Below are positions 28,827 through 34,400 of a stretch of DNA of 39,549 nt, piece after piece. A model generated the notes under the pieces. That model had not been told where the DNA came from. It made no database searches and was given only the letters and a program-made list of their open reading frames with translations. Source of the DNA: Subtercola boreus (GTDB lineage Bacteria; Actinomycetota; Actinomycetes; Actinomycetales; Microbacteriaceae); assembly GCF_003399625.1 (NCBI RefSeq), contig NZ_NBXA01000049.1, positions 1 to 39,549 on the forward strand, written 5' to 3'. Position 1 is the first letter of the stretch, and every line of letters begins with the position of its first letter. Both the position numbers and the translations under genes were made by a program.

Positions 28827-29354
28827 ATGGATGCGCATGTTGAAGAAGTGCTCGACCAGGTTGGTGCCGCACCCGGCGACGACCTCGAAACCATCTTGCA
28901 GAAAGTCGAATCAGCAATCGGAATACCGCTTCGCCTCGAGGCACCGATGCACAAATGGGTTGGCACACCGCTCACGGCAGCCATGGCCATTCATGAGCGC
29001 CACATCTCGCTCTTCTACGCACCCCACCGCTCCCGCGTATACCAACTGCACTGCATCTACCACGAGATCGGCCACGCCCTCCTCCGAACGGCCTGCCGGC
29101 ACATCTCCAAAGAGGAAATGAACGCCCTCTCGATCCCGATCGAAGGCGTCATCTCCGCACACGCACGAAAACTCACCCCAACCGACACCAACGCCTCTCG
29201 GAACTTCGACCTCCACGAAATCGACCGCACCAGACTCACGCCGGCTGCGCGCGACTTCGAAGCGTCCGAAGAGATGGTCGAGAACTTCGCCTACGCCCTC
29301 GCGGCTCGTATCCGCGAACGACCCCTCACCCGCATGGGCGAGGTCTTCGCTTGA
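28827..29354 (+). CDS. ImmA/IrrE-type metallopeptidase
   Basis: A 175-aa protein with the zinc-binding H79-E80-x-x-H83 motif in CIYHEIGHALLRTAC, the signature of the ImmA/IrrE (COG2856) peptidases, and a downstream acidic helix (SEEMVENFAYALAARI) that likely gives the third ligand. Known relatives cleave a partner XRE repressor upon activation. Here the partner would be the preceding regulator. GAGAGG precedes ATG 28827. The gene overlaps the following membrane protein gene by 4 nt, so the two are coupled. Confidence 0.85.
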   Translation: MDAHVEEVLDQVGAAPGDDLETILQKVESAIGIPLRLEAPMHKWVGTPLTAAMAIHERHISLFYAPHRSRVYQLHCIYHEIGHALLRTACRHISKEEMNALSIPIEGVISAHARKLTPTDTNASRNFDLHEIDRTRLTPAARDFEASEEMVENFAYALAARIRERPLTRMGEVFA

Positions 29355-30283
29355 AACAGTTCGCGGTCGTCGCTTTCGCGATCCTCCTCGTCCTGCTTCT
29401 CGCACGCCTCTCCTCGCTCAAGCGACCCTCAGCTCGCCCCGCGTGGCTAGCCACCTTTTTCGGCTGCCTCGCCATCATCTCTATCGGCGCCGTACTTCCA
29501 CTTCCCCTCGTCGACGAGGCGCTCGGCGGTAGCAACCTCATCAACCTCGTCCAAAGCTTCTTGACCGTTTCCGCGTTCTGGTTCTTCCGAGACGCAGTCA
29601 GCGTTTTCTATCTAAAGCCGAAGCTGCACTCACGGTGGACACTGCTTCTCACGGTGACGGCGATGGCTGTGCCGTTTGCCTTCATTCACGACCGCGGACC
29701 GACGTCGAATACATTCATGGCCGACCACGTCGACCAACTCGGCAACGTGGCTTACAACATCGTTTACATGGCCGCAGTGGCGTTGATCGTCTTCGATCTC
29801 ATCCACCTTCTTCGTCGCCCTGCTGACAATATCCAGAAGGTCTTCCTCGTCGGGCTCATCCCCATCCCCGTAGCCTGCGTCGTCGAGATCGCCTATGTTT
29901 CAACAGCACACTTCTTCCCCTACTGGGGTGGAGCGCAGCTGCTCGCAGATGCCTTCTACCCGTTGTTCTACATAGGGGTGTCGATCGTCGCGGTCGCCTG
30001 GACCACAGCGTTGATCCGCGAAAGAGGCGTCGTCGATCGCGTCCTGTGGAAGCTCAGATCTGCGCAGGTCGCGTTCCTCCTCAAGCGCTCGATCCTGTCT
30101 GCCCTCCGGGCGTTCCGGAGCAAAAAACCAGATGAACTCGCCTACGCCCTGTCAATCCAGATCCGCAACCACGAGATTCATACCCAGATCCCGCTCAGTA
30201 GTCGGCAGGAGCGTGCCGTCGCTCGACTCGAGTCCCGCTTCCTAGACCTCAGTGCCGTAGATCTGACACCAACCGCTCCGTAA
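29351..30283 (+). CDS. Multi-span membrane protein (MAB_1171c/DUF6545-like)
   Basis: A 310-aa protein with about seven hydrophobic spans in residues 1-225 and a soluble C-terminal region of about 85 residues (VVDRVLWKLRSAQVAFLLKRS...). This matches the layout of the actinobacterial MAB_1171c family as I recall it, which is often found beside XRE and ImmA/IrrE genes. The C-terminal tail ends in YALSIQIRNHEIHTQIP and a charged helix. The TTG start overlaps the protease stop (TTGA), and its 3' end overlaps the converging hydrolase gene by 35 nt. It may sense a signal at the membrane for the protease; this is inference. Confidence 0.7.
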   Translation: MKQFAVVAFAILLVLLLARLSSLKRPSARPAWLATFFGCLAIISIGAVLPLPLVDEALGGSNLINLVQSFLTVSAFWFFRDAVSVFYLKPKLHSRWTLLLTVTAMAVPFAFIHDRGPTSNTFMADHVDQLGNVAYNIVYMAAVALIVFDLIHLLRRPADNIQKVFLVGLIPIPVACVVEIAYVSTAHFFPYWGGAQLLADAFYPLFYIGVSIVAVAWTTALIRERGVVDRVLWKLRSAQVAFLLKRSILSALRAFRSKKPDELAYALSIQIRNHEIHTQIPLSSRQERAVARLESRFLDLSAVDLTPTAP

Positions 30284-31394
30284 CTAGCTTTTCAAACCGT
30301 GGGCGGTCTGCGTTCCACTCCATTGTGTGAAGAGCGCCGGTGAATTCAGCCAAAGTCACCAGGTCTGGATGCATCTTTCGGATCTGCCGGCTGAGGCTGA
30401 TGGGCACCTCGTCGTCATCTGACGAGTGGATGATCAGCGTTGGGATCGAGAGCCTTGGGCGGGATGTCCAGTCCAGTGCATCGAAATCAATGGCGGAAGG
30501 CAAGCCCACAGACCTGGCGAAAGGGCGCCATCCCAACGCCGCCACGACCACGGAGGACACCCACCGCGGGAGATGCGCCGCCTTGGCGCCGAAAGCGATG
30601 ACCTCAGCCCAATTCGACACAGGGCCAACCAATACGAGATCCGAGATTCGGCCTCTGTTCAAGGACTGCTCGGCAACTCGTAATGCGATACCGCCGCCGT
30701 TCGACCAGCCCATCAGCGTAATGCGCTTCGCCCCGTGCTCGAGCGCAAACAAGACTGCAGCATCCACATCAGGCCACTCCGTCTGACCCAGCATGCTCGC
30801 ACTCTTCGGCACCACGGGTCCAACACCGTCACCCCGATACGAAACAACGAGAGAGGTCACCCCCGCAACCGAAGAAGCGACAACGCCGCGAAGCGGCGAA
30901 TCCCGCACCACCCGCAACCCGTGAACATGAATGACCCAGTGATCACTCTGGGTCGTACCCGGGAACAACCAAGCCGGACAGCCCCCAGCCGGCGAATCAA
31001 TAACGACAGACGACCACGGCAAATCAAGATCGATTGGCTCGATCCAGACCATTCCGATCCACTCAGCAGCCCCCGACTTCAACCGGCCGCCGCTCTCAGA
31101 AAGAATTCGGCGCGTGACCGTGCGGGCACGGGGATCCAGGCGGACCACCTCACCAATCACCGCGTGGTTTCTTCGATCGTCTGTCCAGCATGCATATAGG
31201 CCCGGAGCACTTGTGGCAGGTGTTTGCTCGAATGTAGCGAAATCTCCGCTACGACTCAGGCATTCCACTGTCTTCGGCTTCCAAGGCAGGACCACCATTC
31301 CCGCAGAGACGCGTAGTCCAACCCAAGCCAATACCGCCAACACGACCGGGGCGAACGACAACTTGATGAACCCCATACTTACGAGACTAACCAC
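30249..31394 (-). CDS. Membrane-anchored alpha/beta hydrolase
   Basis: A 381-aa protein. The N-terminus holds one hydrophobic anchor (SFAPVVLAVLAWVGLRVSAGMVV). An additional domain of about 100 residues precedes the hydrolase core. The catalytic triad is visible: Ser231 in the elbow GWSNGGG, Asp326-328 in HSSDDDEVP and His356 in ALHTMEW, with oxyanion-type HVHGLR upstream. It is likely an esterase, lipase or peptidase of the DAP2/S9-like group. GTG 31394 is supported by GAGGG 8-9 nt upstream. Its promoter region contains the second GGCAAT-N5-ATTGCC site, linking it to the XRE/ImmA block. Confidence 0.82.
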   Translation of the reverse strand: MVSLVSMGFIKLSFAPVVLAVLAWVGLRVSAGMVVLPWKPKTVECLSRSGDFATFEQTPATSAPGLYACWTDDRRNHAVIGEVVRLDPRARTVTRRILSESGGRLKSGAAEWIGMVWIEPIDLDLPWSSVVIDSPAGGCPAWLFPGTTQSDHWVIHVHGLRVVRDSPLRGVVASSVAGVTSLVVSYRGDGVGPVVPKSASMLGQTEWPDVDAAVLFALEHGAKRITLMGWSNGGGIALRVAEQSLNRGRISDLVLVGPVSNWAEVIAFGAKAAHLPRWVSSVVVAALGWRPFARSVGLPSAIDFDALDWTSRPRLSIPTLIIHSSDDDEVPISLSRQIRKMHPDLVTLAEFTGALHTMEWNADRPRFEKLVTERLVSDLRH

Positions 31395-31435: not shown

Positions 31436-31678
31436 CGGGTCATTTCGTATATGGTTAGACGATGTTCAGATCGATGCCGTCATCTAGTTGCGCGAGCAGG
31501 CGTTCTGCTCGTGGTAAATCTCCCCAGTTCACGCAAGGTCATTGCTCTGCAATCACGAGATCGGGCGCCTATGCGAACAAAATCTACGTTCTAGCGGAGC
31601 CGCTTTTACCCCGTCCTCATTCGGGTTGCGAGACGCCCGGGCGCATTGCGAATGAGACACGCCGTCAGCCCTCCGCCG

Positions 31679-31690
31679 TGTATGCATACA
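31679..31690. promoter_or_regulatory. 12-bp perfect palindrome before the small RHH-like gene
   Basis: TGTATGCATACA at 31679-31690, 20 bp before ATG 31711, overlapping a TACATT -10-like hexamer. A self-complementary site here suits autorepression by the dimeric protein encoded just downstream. The 275 bp from 31436 to 31710 contain no other credible gene. Confidence 0.5.
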
Positions 31691-31710
31691 TTAACGCGAG
31701 CATTGCGGGT

Positions 31711-31947
31711 ATGAGCGCAAACCGAGGCAGAGTTCGTCGTCCAGACAACGTTCCAACAGTGCTATTGCAAGCCCGCGTTTCGCCTGACATCCGGGACGAA
31801 GTCTCCGCCGCTGCCGCTGCCAGCGGCGTCTCGCTTGCGTTCTACCTCGAAAGTCTTCTCAAAAGAGATCTCGCCGAAAGCGGACGTCTTCCCATCTTTG
31901 AGATCCGTCCGCAACTGGAGGAGCTGCCCATCGACCAGGTCGCTTAA
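31711..31947 (+). CDS. Small ribbon-helix-helix-like protein (78 aa)
   Basis: A 78-residue protein with VPTVLLQARVSPDIRDEVSA and AAASGVSLAFYLESLLKRDL, the strand-helix-helix pattern of CopG/Arc-type DNA-binding proteins (residues about 14-52), then a short acidic tail. It is first of a three-gene run leading to rep, so it is a candidate copy-number regulator. ATG 31711 is preferred; an in-frame extension to 31462 translates into low-complexity sequence. The start has only a weak ribosome site (TGCGGGT). Confidence 0.65.
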   Translation: MSANRGRVRRPDNVPTVLLQARVSPDIRDEVSAAAAASGVSLAFYLESLLKRDLAESGRLPIFEIRPQLEELPIDQVA

Positions 31948-31955
31948 AAACGAAG

Positions 31956-31979
31956 GGCCCGTCGCGCTAACGACGGGCC
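31956..31979 (+). terminator. Hairpin I of leader unit 1
   Basis: GGCCCGTCG (31956-31964) and CGACGGGCC (31971-31979), 6-nt loop, 8 nt after the stop of the RHH-like gene. No T-run follows. The equivalent hairpin stands in the same place in unit 2, so it may be a processing or attenuation element instead of a true terminator. Confidence 0.6.
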
Positions 31980-31991
31980 ACTCAAAGTTTC

Positions 31992-32069
31992 GTAGCTCAA
32001 ACCCTCTTCGCTTGCCGGCCAACAGGTTAGAGCTAATCCAGATCACCAGCCCAAAAGGGAGGCTTCTTT
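31992..32069 (+). promoter_or_regulatory. Structured leader, copy 1 (before the 67-aa ORF)
   Basis: Stem II pairs TAGCTCAAACC (31993-32003) with GGTTAGAGCTA (32025-32035), with one A-A mismatch. Stem III is CCC-AAAA-GGG, and it partly covers the ribosome site GGGAGG before ATG 32070. It matches copy 2 at 32318-32393 along nearly its whole length, with a C-G pair here in place of T-A there. Confidence 0.75.
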
Positions 32070-32273
32070 ATGTCCGTCACTATAGCAACATCGACTGAAA
32101 AGTACACCAGCTTTTCTGCGGGCGTGTCATATGACCCCGCGCAGGTGCCAGATCATCAGGCTGAGCAACGCCGCTACGCCTCCGCGTCAACCCACAAACT
32201 CACGACGAGCAAATCTGCTCTCGTTCCCTCGCGCACCTATCCCCGATGGGAGTTCCTCACGGCGACCGATTAA
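32070..32273 (+). CDS. 67-aa ORF preceding rep
   Basis: Not recognised. A 67-residue polar protein rich in Ser, Thr and Tyr with no membrane span or motif. It could be a leader peptide whose translation controls rep, or a small copy-control protein. Support for it being real comes from its context: a strong ribosome site (GGGAGG, 6 nt before the start codon region) in a leader duplicated before rep, and a stop codon followed by the same type of hairpin as the gene before. Confidence 0.55.
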   Translation: MSVTIATSTEKYTSFSAGVSYDPAQVPDHQAEQRRYASASTHKLTTSKSALVPSRTYPRWEFLTATD

Positions 32274-32277
32274 CGAA

Positions 32278-32307
32278 AATAGCCCGCCGTACCACCGGCG
32301 GGCTATT
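32278..32307 (+). terminator. Hairpin I of leader unit 2
   Basis: AATAGCCCGCCG (32278-32289) and CGGCGGGCTATT (32296-32307), a perfect 12-bp stem with a 6-nt loop, starting 4 nt after the 67-aa ORF stop. It is the positional counterpart of the hairpin at 31956-31979. Confidence 0.7.
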
Positions 32308-32317
32308 CCCAAGTCAT

Positions 32318-32393
32318 GTAGTTCGAACCGTCTTGCTTGCAGGCGGGGGGTTCGAACTAATTCAATCCACCTGCCCTTACGGGAGGCTTCTCT
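32318..32393 (+). promoter_or_regulatory. Structured leader, copy 2 (before rep)
   Basis: Stem II pairs TAGTTCGAACC (32319-32329) with GGTTCGAACTA (32349-32359), a perfect 11-bp stem. Stem III, CCC-TTAC-GGG, covers part of the GGGAGG ribosome site of rep. The leader is 76 nt against 78 nt in copy 1. The 13-mer CTTACGGGAGGCT (32376-32388) is shared with the virB4 ribosome site. Confidence 0.78.
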
Positions 32394-34400
32394 ATGCCCA
32401 AAAGATTACCCCAGGCCGCGTGCCCAACACCCGAGCGCCGTGTCGGCGTGTCGTCGACCCCAGCGACGGCTGAAAACGCGGACCCGATGCTGCTCGCTTG
32501 GGATCTGACGCGGCAGTTGAGTCCGCGAGGCACGGTGCGTGTGATGAAGCGTGATGCGTACGGGCGTCTGGATGAGAACAGTTACCCGAGCACGCATCTG
32601 GTGGGGCCGGTCGCGCCGTCGACGCCGTGGTGTGTGAATCTCGCTGACGATGCGGGGCTTTTTTGGTTGTTGTGTTTTGACTTCGATGGCAAGGACAAGC
32701 ACGGTGTTGATCCGGAGATGATGGAACTTGCGCACGATGAGTGCGACGCGCTTTCTGGCGTGCTGGGTGAGTTGTCGATCGAGCATGTGGTGTGCCAGTC
32801 CTCCGGAACGGGCGGCCGGCACATCTGGGTCGCCCTCGCCGCCGGCGTCTCCGCTGACGAGGCAGCGGTCCTCGGCCGTGCCGCGCGGGCGAACTATCGG
32901 ACCTTGGACCATGGGATGCTGCACAACGCCCGGACCGGTGCCGCGCGTCCTCCCCTCTCCCCGCACCGGGACGGTTCCGTCTCGAGCGTGCTCCGCGGCC
33001 GGATCGACGTTCTACTTGCCCCGTCCACCACTGCGGATATGGTGGCGGATCTTGCGCGGGTGTTGGACGTACGGAAGCCTGCGGTTCGGTCGGTCGAGTC
33101 GGTGCCCTCTGGCCCGGTTGATGCCCGGCATAGCGCTCACCGGCCGCTGAGCGCCTCCGGGACTGCGCATATGGCCACGATCGGAGGCGGCAGCAATCCG
33201 TCGTGGACGGGGTTCATGTGCCTCCTCGCGGCCGCGCACGCAGGTTGGCAGTACGCCGATGTGCAGCACGCTGCGAAGACCGCGCCAGGGATGGAGCATT
33301 ACCGGAGTAAGAACACCGGCCGCGGCGGCCGCCGTACTCGAAGTGTGGCGGAGGCTGCGGAGCGGTTGGGTCGGCAGTGGGAGAAGGCGCAGCAGTACGC
33401 TGCGATCCAGCGCCCGCTCCCCCAGGCCGGCCGAACCCCTGCCGACCTCACGGAGCTGGATGGCATCGTCCGGGCCGTGGACGCCGTTCTGAGCTCTTTT
33501 CAGGTCGCCCCCGGCCGGTGGGGCACGTCGGAGTCTGCGCAGTCGCAGCGCTCGATCCTCGCTGCTGTTGCGTACCTGTCCTTGCAGACCGGGAAACGCG
33601 TGGTCGCCGCCTCCATCCGTGACCTCGCCCTGATGACAGGACTTGGCCGGACAACCGCAGCGACCGCCCTCACAGCGCTTGCAGGACAGGACCTGCTGGC
33701 CCGGATCAGTACCAGCGATGGCGGCAACGCCGCCGAATGGCGCCTAGCCCCGGAGTTTTCCACACCTTCAGGAATTGTCCGGTCACAACCACTACATAAC
33801 CCCCGCCCCCCTACCGAGCTCTTCAATAGCAGAACGGATCAGGTAGCCACTCTCGAGCAGCTGCTTACCGACCAACGACACGATTTGTTTACGCGCGCAG
33901 GCCTTGGCCACCTTGCGGGGAAGGTTTACGCACTGCTGCGCCACTCCCCCGTGTTGACTGTCGACGCCGCTGCACGGTTACTGGGCGTCTCGACTAGACA
34001 CACGATCGCCGTGTTGAGCCGGCTACGCCACTACAAGCTGATCATTCGACACCCTGACGGTTGGGCAAGGTCAAAGAGAGACCTCAGAGACCACGCAGCT
34101 CGACTGATCGGTGTTTCGGGCCTTCTCCGCGATCGGGCGGAACGCTACCGGAATGAACGCGAAGTGTGGGCATGGTGGTTGGCCGAAGTTAACCAGATGA
34201 ACTCCGCGCCGAGGCGCCGAACCAGAAGACCTCACGTGTCGAGCCGCACCCTTCAGTTCCTCGACGACCTTACAGGCGAACGGCAATGGCCCCGCTACCC
34301 ACGAGCCGCGGACGGGCGAGGCGATCACAGGGAGGCGCGCTATTGGGCAAGCAACGGAATGTTGGAACCAGGATCGCTTTGGTACTCAAGCGCCGCGTGA
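32394..34400 (+). CDS. Plasmid replication protein with AEP-type primase domain
   Basis: A 668-aa protein. The N-terminal half carries an archaeo-eukaryotic-primase-like core: LLCFDFDGKDK with the metal-binding D96-x-D98, then SSGTGGRHIWVAL with the S-x-H type motif (H143). The C-terminal half includes winged-helix-like segments (SIRDLALMTGLGRTTAATALTAL near 410 and VDAAARLLGVSTRHTIAVLSRL near 525), fitting origin recognition. Such primase fusions initiate replication of some actinobacterial theta plasmids. It is the likely replication initiator here, with the origin probably in the adjoining gene-free interval. The start follows the duplicated structured leader. Confidence 0.8.
   Translation: MPKRLPQAACPTPERRVGVSSTPATAENADPMLLAWDLTRQLSPRGTVRVMKRDAYGRLDENSYPSTHLVGPVAPSTPWCVNLADDAGLFWLLCFDFDGKDKHGVDPEMMELAHDECDALSGVLGELSIEHVVCQSSGTGGRHIWVALAAGVSADEAAVLGRAARANYRTLDHGMLHNARTGAARPPLSPHRDGSVSSVLRGRIDVLLAPSTTADMVADLARVLDVRKPAVRSVESVPSGPVDARHSAHRPLSASGTAHMATIGGGSNPSWTGFMCLLAAAHAGWQYADVQHAAKTAPGMEHYRSKNTGRGGRRTRSVAEAAERLGRQWEKAQQYAAIQRPLPQAGRTPADLTELDGIVRAVDAVLSSFQVAPGRWGTSESAQSQRSILAAVAYLSLQTGKRVVAASIRDLALMTGLGRTTAATALTALAGQDLLARISTSDGGNAAEWRLAPEFSTPSGIVRSQPLHNPRPPTELFNSRTDQVATLEQLLTDQRHDLFTRAGLGHLAGKVYALLRHSPVLTVDAAARLLGVSTRHTIAVLSRLRHYKLIIRHPDGWARSKRDLRDHAARLIGVSGLLRDRAERYRNEREVWAWWLAEVNQMNSAPRRRTRRPHVSSRTLQFLDDLTGERQWPRYPRAADGRGDHREARYWASNGMLEPGSLWYSSAA

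Follow-up and report, generated by a model that had tools for sequence, protein, structure and literature searches.

A conserved leader repeated before a replication gene of Subtercola boreus probably also encodes a countertranscribed antisense RNA

The window analysed here is contig C49 (39,549 bases) of a draft genome of Subtercola boreus (4.1 Mb, 95 contigs). It carries two tandem copies of a leader, the second of which precedes a replication gene, and we report that this repeated leader is a real, evolutionarily conserved RNA structure. Its helices covary across a large family of relatives, its first hairpin evolves with a marked strand polarity, a −10 signal is locked in position within the ORF behind it, and a small RHH protein gene lies directly upstream in the same orientation. 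We consider it probable that the leader also encodes a minus-strand antisense RNA that limits translation of the replication gene and hence plasmid copy number.

Results

Gene order in the window

Along positions 31711-34400 the plus strand carries, in order, the RHH gene (78 aa, 31711..31947), a leader, an ORF of 67 aa (32070..32273), a second leader and the replication gene, rep (668 aa, 32394..34400). The Rep protein shows weak matches to primase-polymerase (AEP) and HTH families: its only Pfam matches at E <= 0.1 are HTH_Crp_2, AEP-TOTE (20.9 bits, cut-off 27) and HTH_Tnp_ISL3, all sub-threshold, and a sequence profile search of the PDB yielded no relative. The closest relatives found are a partial S. 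boreus Rep (94% identity), the Rep of G007, from the same genus (92%), and that of Subtercola vilae (84%). A search of genome contigs located 58 loci that encode a Rep relative, and the rep region has matches in 50 plasmid records; 38 stretches of viral contigs fitted a pattern, and none of these was a relative. The window's genome contains four leaders, two on C49 and one each on contigs C50 and C81. Other loci are cited below by number (L003 and so on).

Several features of the surroundings may be recorded here. The RHH-leader-rep unit adjoins, on two contigs of the window's genome, an ORF that by eye resembles a membrane protein and one for an alpha/beta hydrolase (30.9 bits to Hydrolase_4), at 29351-30283 and 30249-31394 in the window and at 5-952 and 952-2091 in L003; a similar-looking hydrolase ORF lies near the unit in L038 (3195-4340) and L044 (2623-3786). 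On contig C50, two direct repeats, nearly identical and some 145 bp from each other, stand just upstream of the RHH gene (L003, 2033-2327), and were noticed only through the duplicate appearance of one ORF (MPIRSGFRTRYGG...). In three plasmids, genes for ArsR-like or winged-helix regulators lie just upstream of the RHH gene (L004 915-1238, L005 876-1232 and L007 909-1232), and perhaps add a further layer of control.

Architecture of the two leaders

The initial annotation described two tandem three-hairpin leaders, each before an RBS and an ATG, and direct reading shows that description to be accurate. Leader 1 (31945..32069, plus strand; 84.6 bits in search R2, below) begins with the TAA of the RHH gene (31945-31947), comprises helices P1, P2 (hairpin I), P3 (stem II) with an apical P3b, and an SD hairpin, P4, and leads to the ATG at 32070. 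Leader 2 (32271..32393, plus strand; 64.7 bits) begins with the TAA at 32271-32273 and leads to the ATG of rep at 32394. Both are of type A, as defined below.

In copy 1, P1 pairs ACGAAG (31950-31955) with TTTCGT (31988-31993) and encloses hairpin I (31950..31993, plus strand), its pairs having p values of 0.005-0.03 against a tree-aware null; in copy 2, at most four of these six pairs can form. Hairpin I occupies 31956..31979 in copy 1 (GGCCCGTCG/CGACGGGCC, 9 bp core) and 32278..32307 in copy 2 (12 bp). Stem II joins 31993-32003 to 32025-32035 in copy 1 (31993..32035; reading and covariation), with the apical hairpin GCTTGCCGGC at 32010-32019, and 32319-32329 to 32349-32359 in copy 2 (32319..32359; reading, covariation and folding). 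It is present as originally drawn, except that copy 1 has one A.A mismatch and so 10 of 11 pairs. The reported distances of 78 and 76 nt from stem II to ATG are inclusive counts, equal to 77 and 75 positions from the first stem II base to the A. Folding places P4 on the plus strand, with CCC 32050-52 opposite GGG 32057-59 in copy 1 (32050..32062) and CCC 32374-76 opposite GGG 32381-83 in copy 2 (32374..32386); it overlaps GGGAGG (32057-62 in copy 1) as had been stated, with a core of only 3 bp. Helix P1 and the minus-strand signals discussed below were absent from the earlier description.

Both copies fold more strongly than chance predicts. The z-scores for copies 1 and 2 are -2.67 and -5.73 on the plus strand and -3.27 and -4.54 on the minus strand, so that for copy 2, with its RBS part included, the plus strand is the more extreme. 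Most of the leaders folded form P1, P3 and P4 on the plus strand.

Extent of the leader family and covariation

No named RNA motif had been recognised in the leaders, and this still holds: against Rfam 15, neither the window nor any of seven relatives reaches a family's gathering threshold, and the only permissive match to the leader region scores 15.1 bits (cut-off 97). A covariance-model search, suggested in the initial annotation as a means of learning whether there are only these two copies, returned many further leaders. Model R1 was built from 16 leaders, which match by construction; at E <= 0.0005 it recovered 59 leaders, spread over 52 of 66 sources. Search R2 covered the window and 88 of 119 loci, the others being near-duplicates, partial or earlier without a leader, and found 101 leaders in 83 of its 89 sources, with no match in the other six; the resulting alignment, A7, has 98 distinct rows. 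At E <= 0.001, R1 left 14 of 66 sources leaderless (L009, L011, L014, L053, L055, L056, L058, L059, L061-L065 and L067), among which L061, L062 and L064 start inside rep, and L065 and L067 match only the end of rep. Search R3 gave weak matches in L009, L014 and L055 (E 0.013-0.075), and at E 0.1 the remaining Curtobacterium loci, except L057, had none.

At E <= 0.001, R1 matched 37 of 398 Microbacteriaceae genomes and R3 matched 46, belonging to 23 of 85 genera; nine of the R3 matches score under 37 bits, and six of the 46 genomes have no stronger one. Among order-level genomes R2 matched 8 of 396, one match (L103) appearing spurious, and among phylum-level genomes the only match in 296 was the window's own genome. 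The distant leaders L108-L110, from another Micrococcales family, keep an apical GCTTGGCGGC hairpin; they have a putative −10 ACCATA, with ATA 5-6 nt behind GGAG. More than one leader is the minority state, found in 17 of the 83 leader-bearing sources, and L010 has three.

The consensus consists of P1 (ACGAAA/TTTCGT) around hairpin I, followed by stem II with apical P3b and a variable RBS part. In alignment A5, whose 65 rows include six weak ones (E 0.018-0.035), five of these on the minus strand, changes on both sides were seen for 23 of 30 pairs, and the covariation score was 0.257 against 0.115 in shuffled alignments, none of 500 reaching the observed value. These shuffles ignore kinship; a tree was therefore built from A7 and columns were simulated along it with a custom script. 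Against this tree-aware null, 20 of 30 pairs have p <= 0.01, in an alignment whose fit to the structure somewhat favours covariation. The change from C-G to T-A in stem II between the two copies, first noted as compensatory, is real: the corresponding columns, 70-126, hold CG in 79 rows, UA in 12, UG in 6 and UC in 1 (p 0.0025, tree-aware null). The condition that the initial annotation named as refuting, only these two copies and no further covariation, does not hold. The view that the leader is structured, under selection and active in cis on the gene that follows is supported. A tRNA-like look of stem II, seen by eye only, was set aside.

Variation is distributed unevenly along the structure. 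Among 34 close relatives, mean entropy is highest in the apical flanks of stem II (1.16), followed by the P2-P1 linker (0.90), hairpin I (0.21) and the lower stem (0.16). Such apical variability might fit an incompatibility determinant. Leaders that reside together in one strain differ apically in all 26 pairs (ten strains; 5 pairs on one contig), and in a comparison with other pairs matched for similarity elsewhere, which at n = 3 has no power, 0 of 3 were apically identical against 9 of 75.

Strand polarity of hairpin I

Hairpin I distinguishes the two strands. Over the 98 distinct leaders its plus-strand cells comprise 881 Watson-Crick pairs, 69 A.C, 1 G.U and 9 others, and parsimony assigns 41 changes to A.C against 1 to G.U, the related sequences making these counts, like those of T residues below, other than independent events. 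What reads as A.C on the plus strand reads as G.U on the minus strand, so hairpin I has been kept paired on the latter. No such bias is present in P1 (22 vs 22 changes) or P3 (22 vs 20), the outcome to be expected when the two complementary RNAs both fold. P3b has 88 G.U against 15 A.C on the plus strand, mostly at one U.G position, which favours the sense strand. Measured against the wobble pattern of a riboswitch or other sense-strand regulator, hairpin I is thus contradictory, P1 and P3 are neutral and P3b is favourable.

The flank of hairpin I has a polarity of its own. In the 9 nt after the hairpin the mean number of T residues is 5.49 on the minus strand and 2.43 on the plus strand, the minus strand being higher in 98 of 98 leaders; this is due in part to the stop codon TAA and P1, which are conserved regardless. 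The excess suggests the flank of a terminator, with a U tract that is interrupted (CUUUCGUUU). For the P1-P3 region, the minimum free energy is lower on the minus strand in 83 of 98 leaders and on the plus strand in 15. A terminator scan, which gave 2 sites against 1.1 in shuffled sequence, found hairpin I of copy 1 on the minus strand (31979-31956), where the tail is CTTCGTTTTT, and missed that of copy 2, where it is TTCGTTAA. An intrinsic terminator at the end of the proposed antisense RNA nearest the RHH gene is accordingly predicted in silico, and we propose this role for the minus strand of both hairpins.

A putative promoter signal within the controlled ORF

By a fixed pattern, GGGAGG or AGGAGG followed by ATG, 41 of 100 leaders are of type A. 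All 41 carry ANNNTA, the complement of the −10 hexamer TANNNT, exactly at ATG+9; the only other offset of ANNNTA within 30 nt of the ATG is +29, in two of them. The hexamers are AGCATA (24 leaders), AGATTA (4), ACTATA (3) and seven other kinds, and the residues that they encode differ. Codon 5 in type A is always NTA, so that a −10 at ATG+9 forces rare codons: among its 668 codons the window's rep has ATA 0, GTA 2 and TTA 2 times. L006 and L107, which fall outside the fixed pattern, show the signal at ATG+9 by eye.

In the window the putative −10 boxes are TATAGT on the minus strand at 32079..32084 (copy 1) and TAATCT on the minus strand at 32403..32408 (copy 2), both at ATG+9; the latter turns rep codon 5 into TTA. 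From the −10 and terminator of copy 1, we propose an antisense RNA 1 at about 31947..32072 on the minus strand, and from the −10, T flank and folding of copy 2 an antisense RNA 2 at about 32270..32396, also on the minus strand, the ends of both being approximate. Two positions before the −10, the minus-strand base is mostly G (0.84 and 0.87). No −35 resembling TTGACA is present in the leader family, and a promoter scan of 31600-32600 found no promoter.

A −10-like hexamer could be assigned in each of the other 59 leaders by a looser rule, ATNNTA occurring in 48, mostly 7-10 nt behind the SD; 11 of all 100 hexamers were assigned by hand. Since the type B rule is loose and in part manual, the strict test of the −10 is that in type A only.

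A short sequence, GGCGTGTC, occurs in the window at 32121-32128, 32445-32452 and, on the minus strand, 31656-31663. It lies 51 nt behind both ATGs, within rep covers codons for GVS, and has its reversed copy ahead of the RHH gene. By eye, many other leaders are followed by it too; it is repeated in L023, L024 and L028-L030, and could serve as an operator or as the context of an internal start. As a plasmid-wide iteron it was rejected, with 4 matches in the window against 3.5 expected.

Start codons of type B leaders

The type B branch includes leaders on two other contigs of the window's genome (L003 and L111). A conserved downstream motif sets the reading frame for 34 of the 59 leaders outside the type A pattern (L006, really of type A, among them). 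In 27 of the 34, AUA, AUC or AUU is the only candidate start at SD spacing, L013 being counted here despite an in-frame ATG directly behind its SD. In L046 there is no in-frame ATG, GTG or TTG between leader and conserved motif. A canonical codon was found by rule in 7 of the 34, of which L036 and L089 also carry AUN at the usual place; the rest of the seven are L040 (TTG beside ATA), L018 (ATG at the AUN position, in both its leaders), L006 (start ATG), L019 (ATG) and L086 (GTG).

As a secondary proposal, to which we give somewhat less than even odds, the type B sequence AUNNUA would be both the start of rep, an inefficiently read AUA, AUC or AUU, and the −10 of the antisense promoter. The same doubtful reading would have the RHH-antisense cassette move between unrelated replication genes, and identical bases set the strength of both initiator and inhibitor. 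Other explanations of these starts were tried. The mini-ORF ATG xxx TCA TAG, conserved ahead of type B reps, is not universal, being absent by eye in L036, L113 and L111; a frameshift from its ATG was rejected, as no slippery sequence was seen by eye and the SD is too close. A reading of the conserved ATA-GTA as a rare start codon alone was dropped because the equivalent bases in type A are the −10 at ATG+9, which explains both.

The RHH gene, the 67-aa ORF and the module as a cassette

The window's RHH protein matches Pfam RHH_10 at 18.5 bits, below the cut-off of 27, and its NCBIfam matches are also sub-threshold. Single proteins of this kind are weak in Pfam generally, three others having no match at E 0.01 and RHH_1 matching 4 of 12 at E <= 0.1. 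A profile of 12 upstream proteins matched, in the PDB, the MazE7 antitoxin (E 9.1e-05), the Arc repressor (0.012) and a CopG-family regulator (0.061). Gene order and this profile indicate an RHH gene directly ahead of rep and in its orientation. In the single comparison made, with the G007 relative, dN of the RHH protein is 0.

The leader starts where the preceding ORF stops. Within a range of -12 to +13 of the model start, the stop codon lies at an offset of 0 to 2 in 92 of 101 rows. By eye, the product of that ORF is usually a small protein of RHH type, in many cases with ELPI at its end, and LPI is present in the last 20 residues in 57 of 101 rows. The RHH proteins are highly divergent between replicons, yet many end (E)ELPI before the leader (window 31711-31947, L115, L039 and L008).

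The 67-aa ORF, proposed originally as one possible recogniser of the RNA, finds no support in that role: its constraint (dN/dS 0.49, 0.56 and 0.65) is weaker than that of Rep (0.20 and 0.13). On the strength of this difference we read it as what probably remains of a second RHH ORF that lay between the two leaders, although three relatives have it at an unchanged length. Its equivalent in L010 ends RRELPTAVA, resembling the ELPI..A ends of many RHH ORFs. By eye, an RHH-like ORF stands between tandem leaders in L039, L044, L073-L075, L081, L094 and one of the two gaps of L010, and a decayed one in L035; none is recognisable by eye in the window, L078, the other L010 gap, L018, L040, L048, L049, L116 or L118.

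Leaders precede three protein groups, namely the window-type Rep, a second group (L111-L116 and L119) and a third (L107-L110), with BLAST links within groups and none between them at E 1e-3. The third group has sub-threshold winged-helix matches and the second few or none; both are called replication proteins from gene order only. L119 has its own downstream protein, together with a 31-residue match to the C-terminus of Rep at the far end of the locus.

Discussion

The mechanism that we infer from these features is one in which each leader would be the overlap of a sense mRNA leader and a gene for a countertranscribed antisense RNA. The antisense promoter would sit within the first codons of the controlled ORF, with its −10 at ATG+9, and the transcript, of about 125 nt, would start near the start codon, traverse the RBS hairpin and then stem II, and end at hairpin I as its intrinsic terminator. 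Pairing of this RNA with the leader would hide the RBS and start codon, so that rep translation would fall in proportion to copy number; our guess is that pairing begins at the apex of stem II, the part that varies. The product of the upstream RHH gene would probably repress the operon promoter. Because leaders with the same signals also precede ORFs that are not rep, the unit is taken to act on whichever ORF lies behind it.

The initial annotation had envisaged a cis-acting translational switch with an antisense RNA among its options. The antisense option and the purpose suggested, copy-number control, are both supported as likely; a self-contained sense-strand switch as the primary feature is not. 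In such a switch the leader, alone or with a ligand, would open or close the SD hairpin without any antisense RNA, as in our first working model, a sense-strand riboswitch with a variable expression platform. The plus-strand folding of P1, P3 and P4, the covariation of P1 and the fixed order of the three hairpins all agree with it. We nevertheless abandoned that model and regard the switch as unlikely, because hairpin I evolves through minus-strand wobbles, its T-rich flank lies on the minus side, and ANNNTA at ATG+9 is left without a role. The apical flanks of stem II, moreover, vary most among near-identical leaders, unlike a ligand pocket.

A second question is whether the RHH protein itself binds the leader RNA, or the inverted repeats in its DNA, as cognate regulator, with stem II as the protein site. 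RHH-like ORFs do precede most leaders (by eye, with profile support), including those before the two other protein groups, and stem II is an interrupted palindrome. RHH proteins are, however, known as DNA binders, which counts against the RNA version, and the covariation preserves pairing rather than sequence, favouring RNA over a DNA site. In addition, the RHH proteins are diverse (11 others have 21-57% identity to the window's), whereas the leader is conserved. We think such binding quite improbable, compatible as it is with the antisense model, and a repressor at the operon promoter is the simpler reading. There is only a very slim chance that the leader is instead a DNA element of the replication origin, a cruciform or iteron region with no role in gene expression. 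Its inverted repeats adjoin rep and GGCGTGTC follows both copies, but that sequence is present in the window at chance frequency, the wobble polarity is an RNA signature, and the leader keeps a fixed place before RBS and start codon even where the ORF is not rep.

If the antisense model is true, these leaders constitute a countertranscript control family of Micrococcales plasmids that is common to different replication genes, and a module of which one operon can hold up to three copies (L010). The leader can serve as a marker in searches for replicons, and incompatibility can perhaps be predicted from the variable apex of stem II. The combination of wobble polarity and terminator polarity offers a cheap general test for distinguishing an antisense RNA gene from a leader that is merely structured. 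The AUN starts, if real, would make up a natural collection of plasmid genes with AUA, AUC or AUU as initiation codon.

To our knowledge, the replication control of such plasmids has been little studied. The Clavibacter plasmid pCM2 carries the same leader (L006) and a Rep 63% identical to the window's; the titles and abstract openings of the pCM1 and pCM2 literature contain nothing on this leader, and a wider search of titles and abstract openings, with most subscription journals outside its scope, gave no description of it. Multi-stem antisense RNAs complementary to a rep leader are known in RNAIII of pIP501, CopA of R1 and Inc RNA of ColIb-P9, to which the RNA proposed here would be similar in plan.

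CopG of pMV158 is an RHH protein. The 48-nt RNAII of that plasmid, which has a single hairpin and a 5′ tail of 17 nt, is antisense to the copG-repB intergenic region and blocks repB translation; it is complementary to sequence just upstream of the repB initiation signals (PMC4485353). In pMV158 the repressor gene is cotranscribed with repB, and the antisense RNA has a terminator hairpin and U-rich end (PMC4485353). Similarly, the window has a small RHH gene ahead of rep, and would have an opposing antisense gene over the intergenic leader whose RNA ends in a terminator hairpin and inhibits rep translation. An actinobacterial case of antisense copy-number control is cgrI of the pCG1 family in Corynebacterium glutamicum, for which a promoter mutation raised copy number (PMC13088423); the likeness is one of description, and the part of the account compared makes no mention of an RHH gene (PMC13088423). 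Unlike RNAII of pMV158, the RNA proposed here would be about 125 nt long, with three stem-loops, and would cover the RBS and start codon; its −10 would lie inside the controlled ORF, and the module is tandemly repeated and stands before three protein groups. Pfam reveals no RepB-type rolling-circle initiator at E <= 0.1 and the profile search no PDB relative, and for this reason we do not file the unit in the pMV158 family. As a working analogue, the CopG/RNAII pair of pMV158 nevertheless appears to be the closest.
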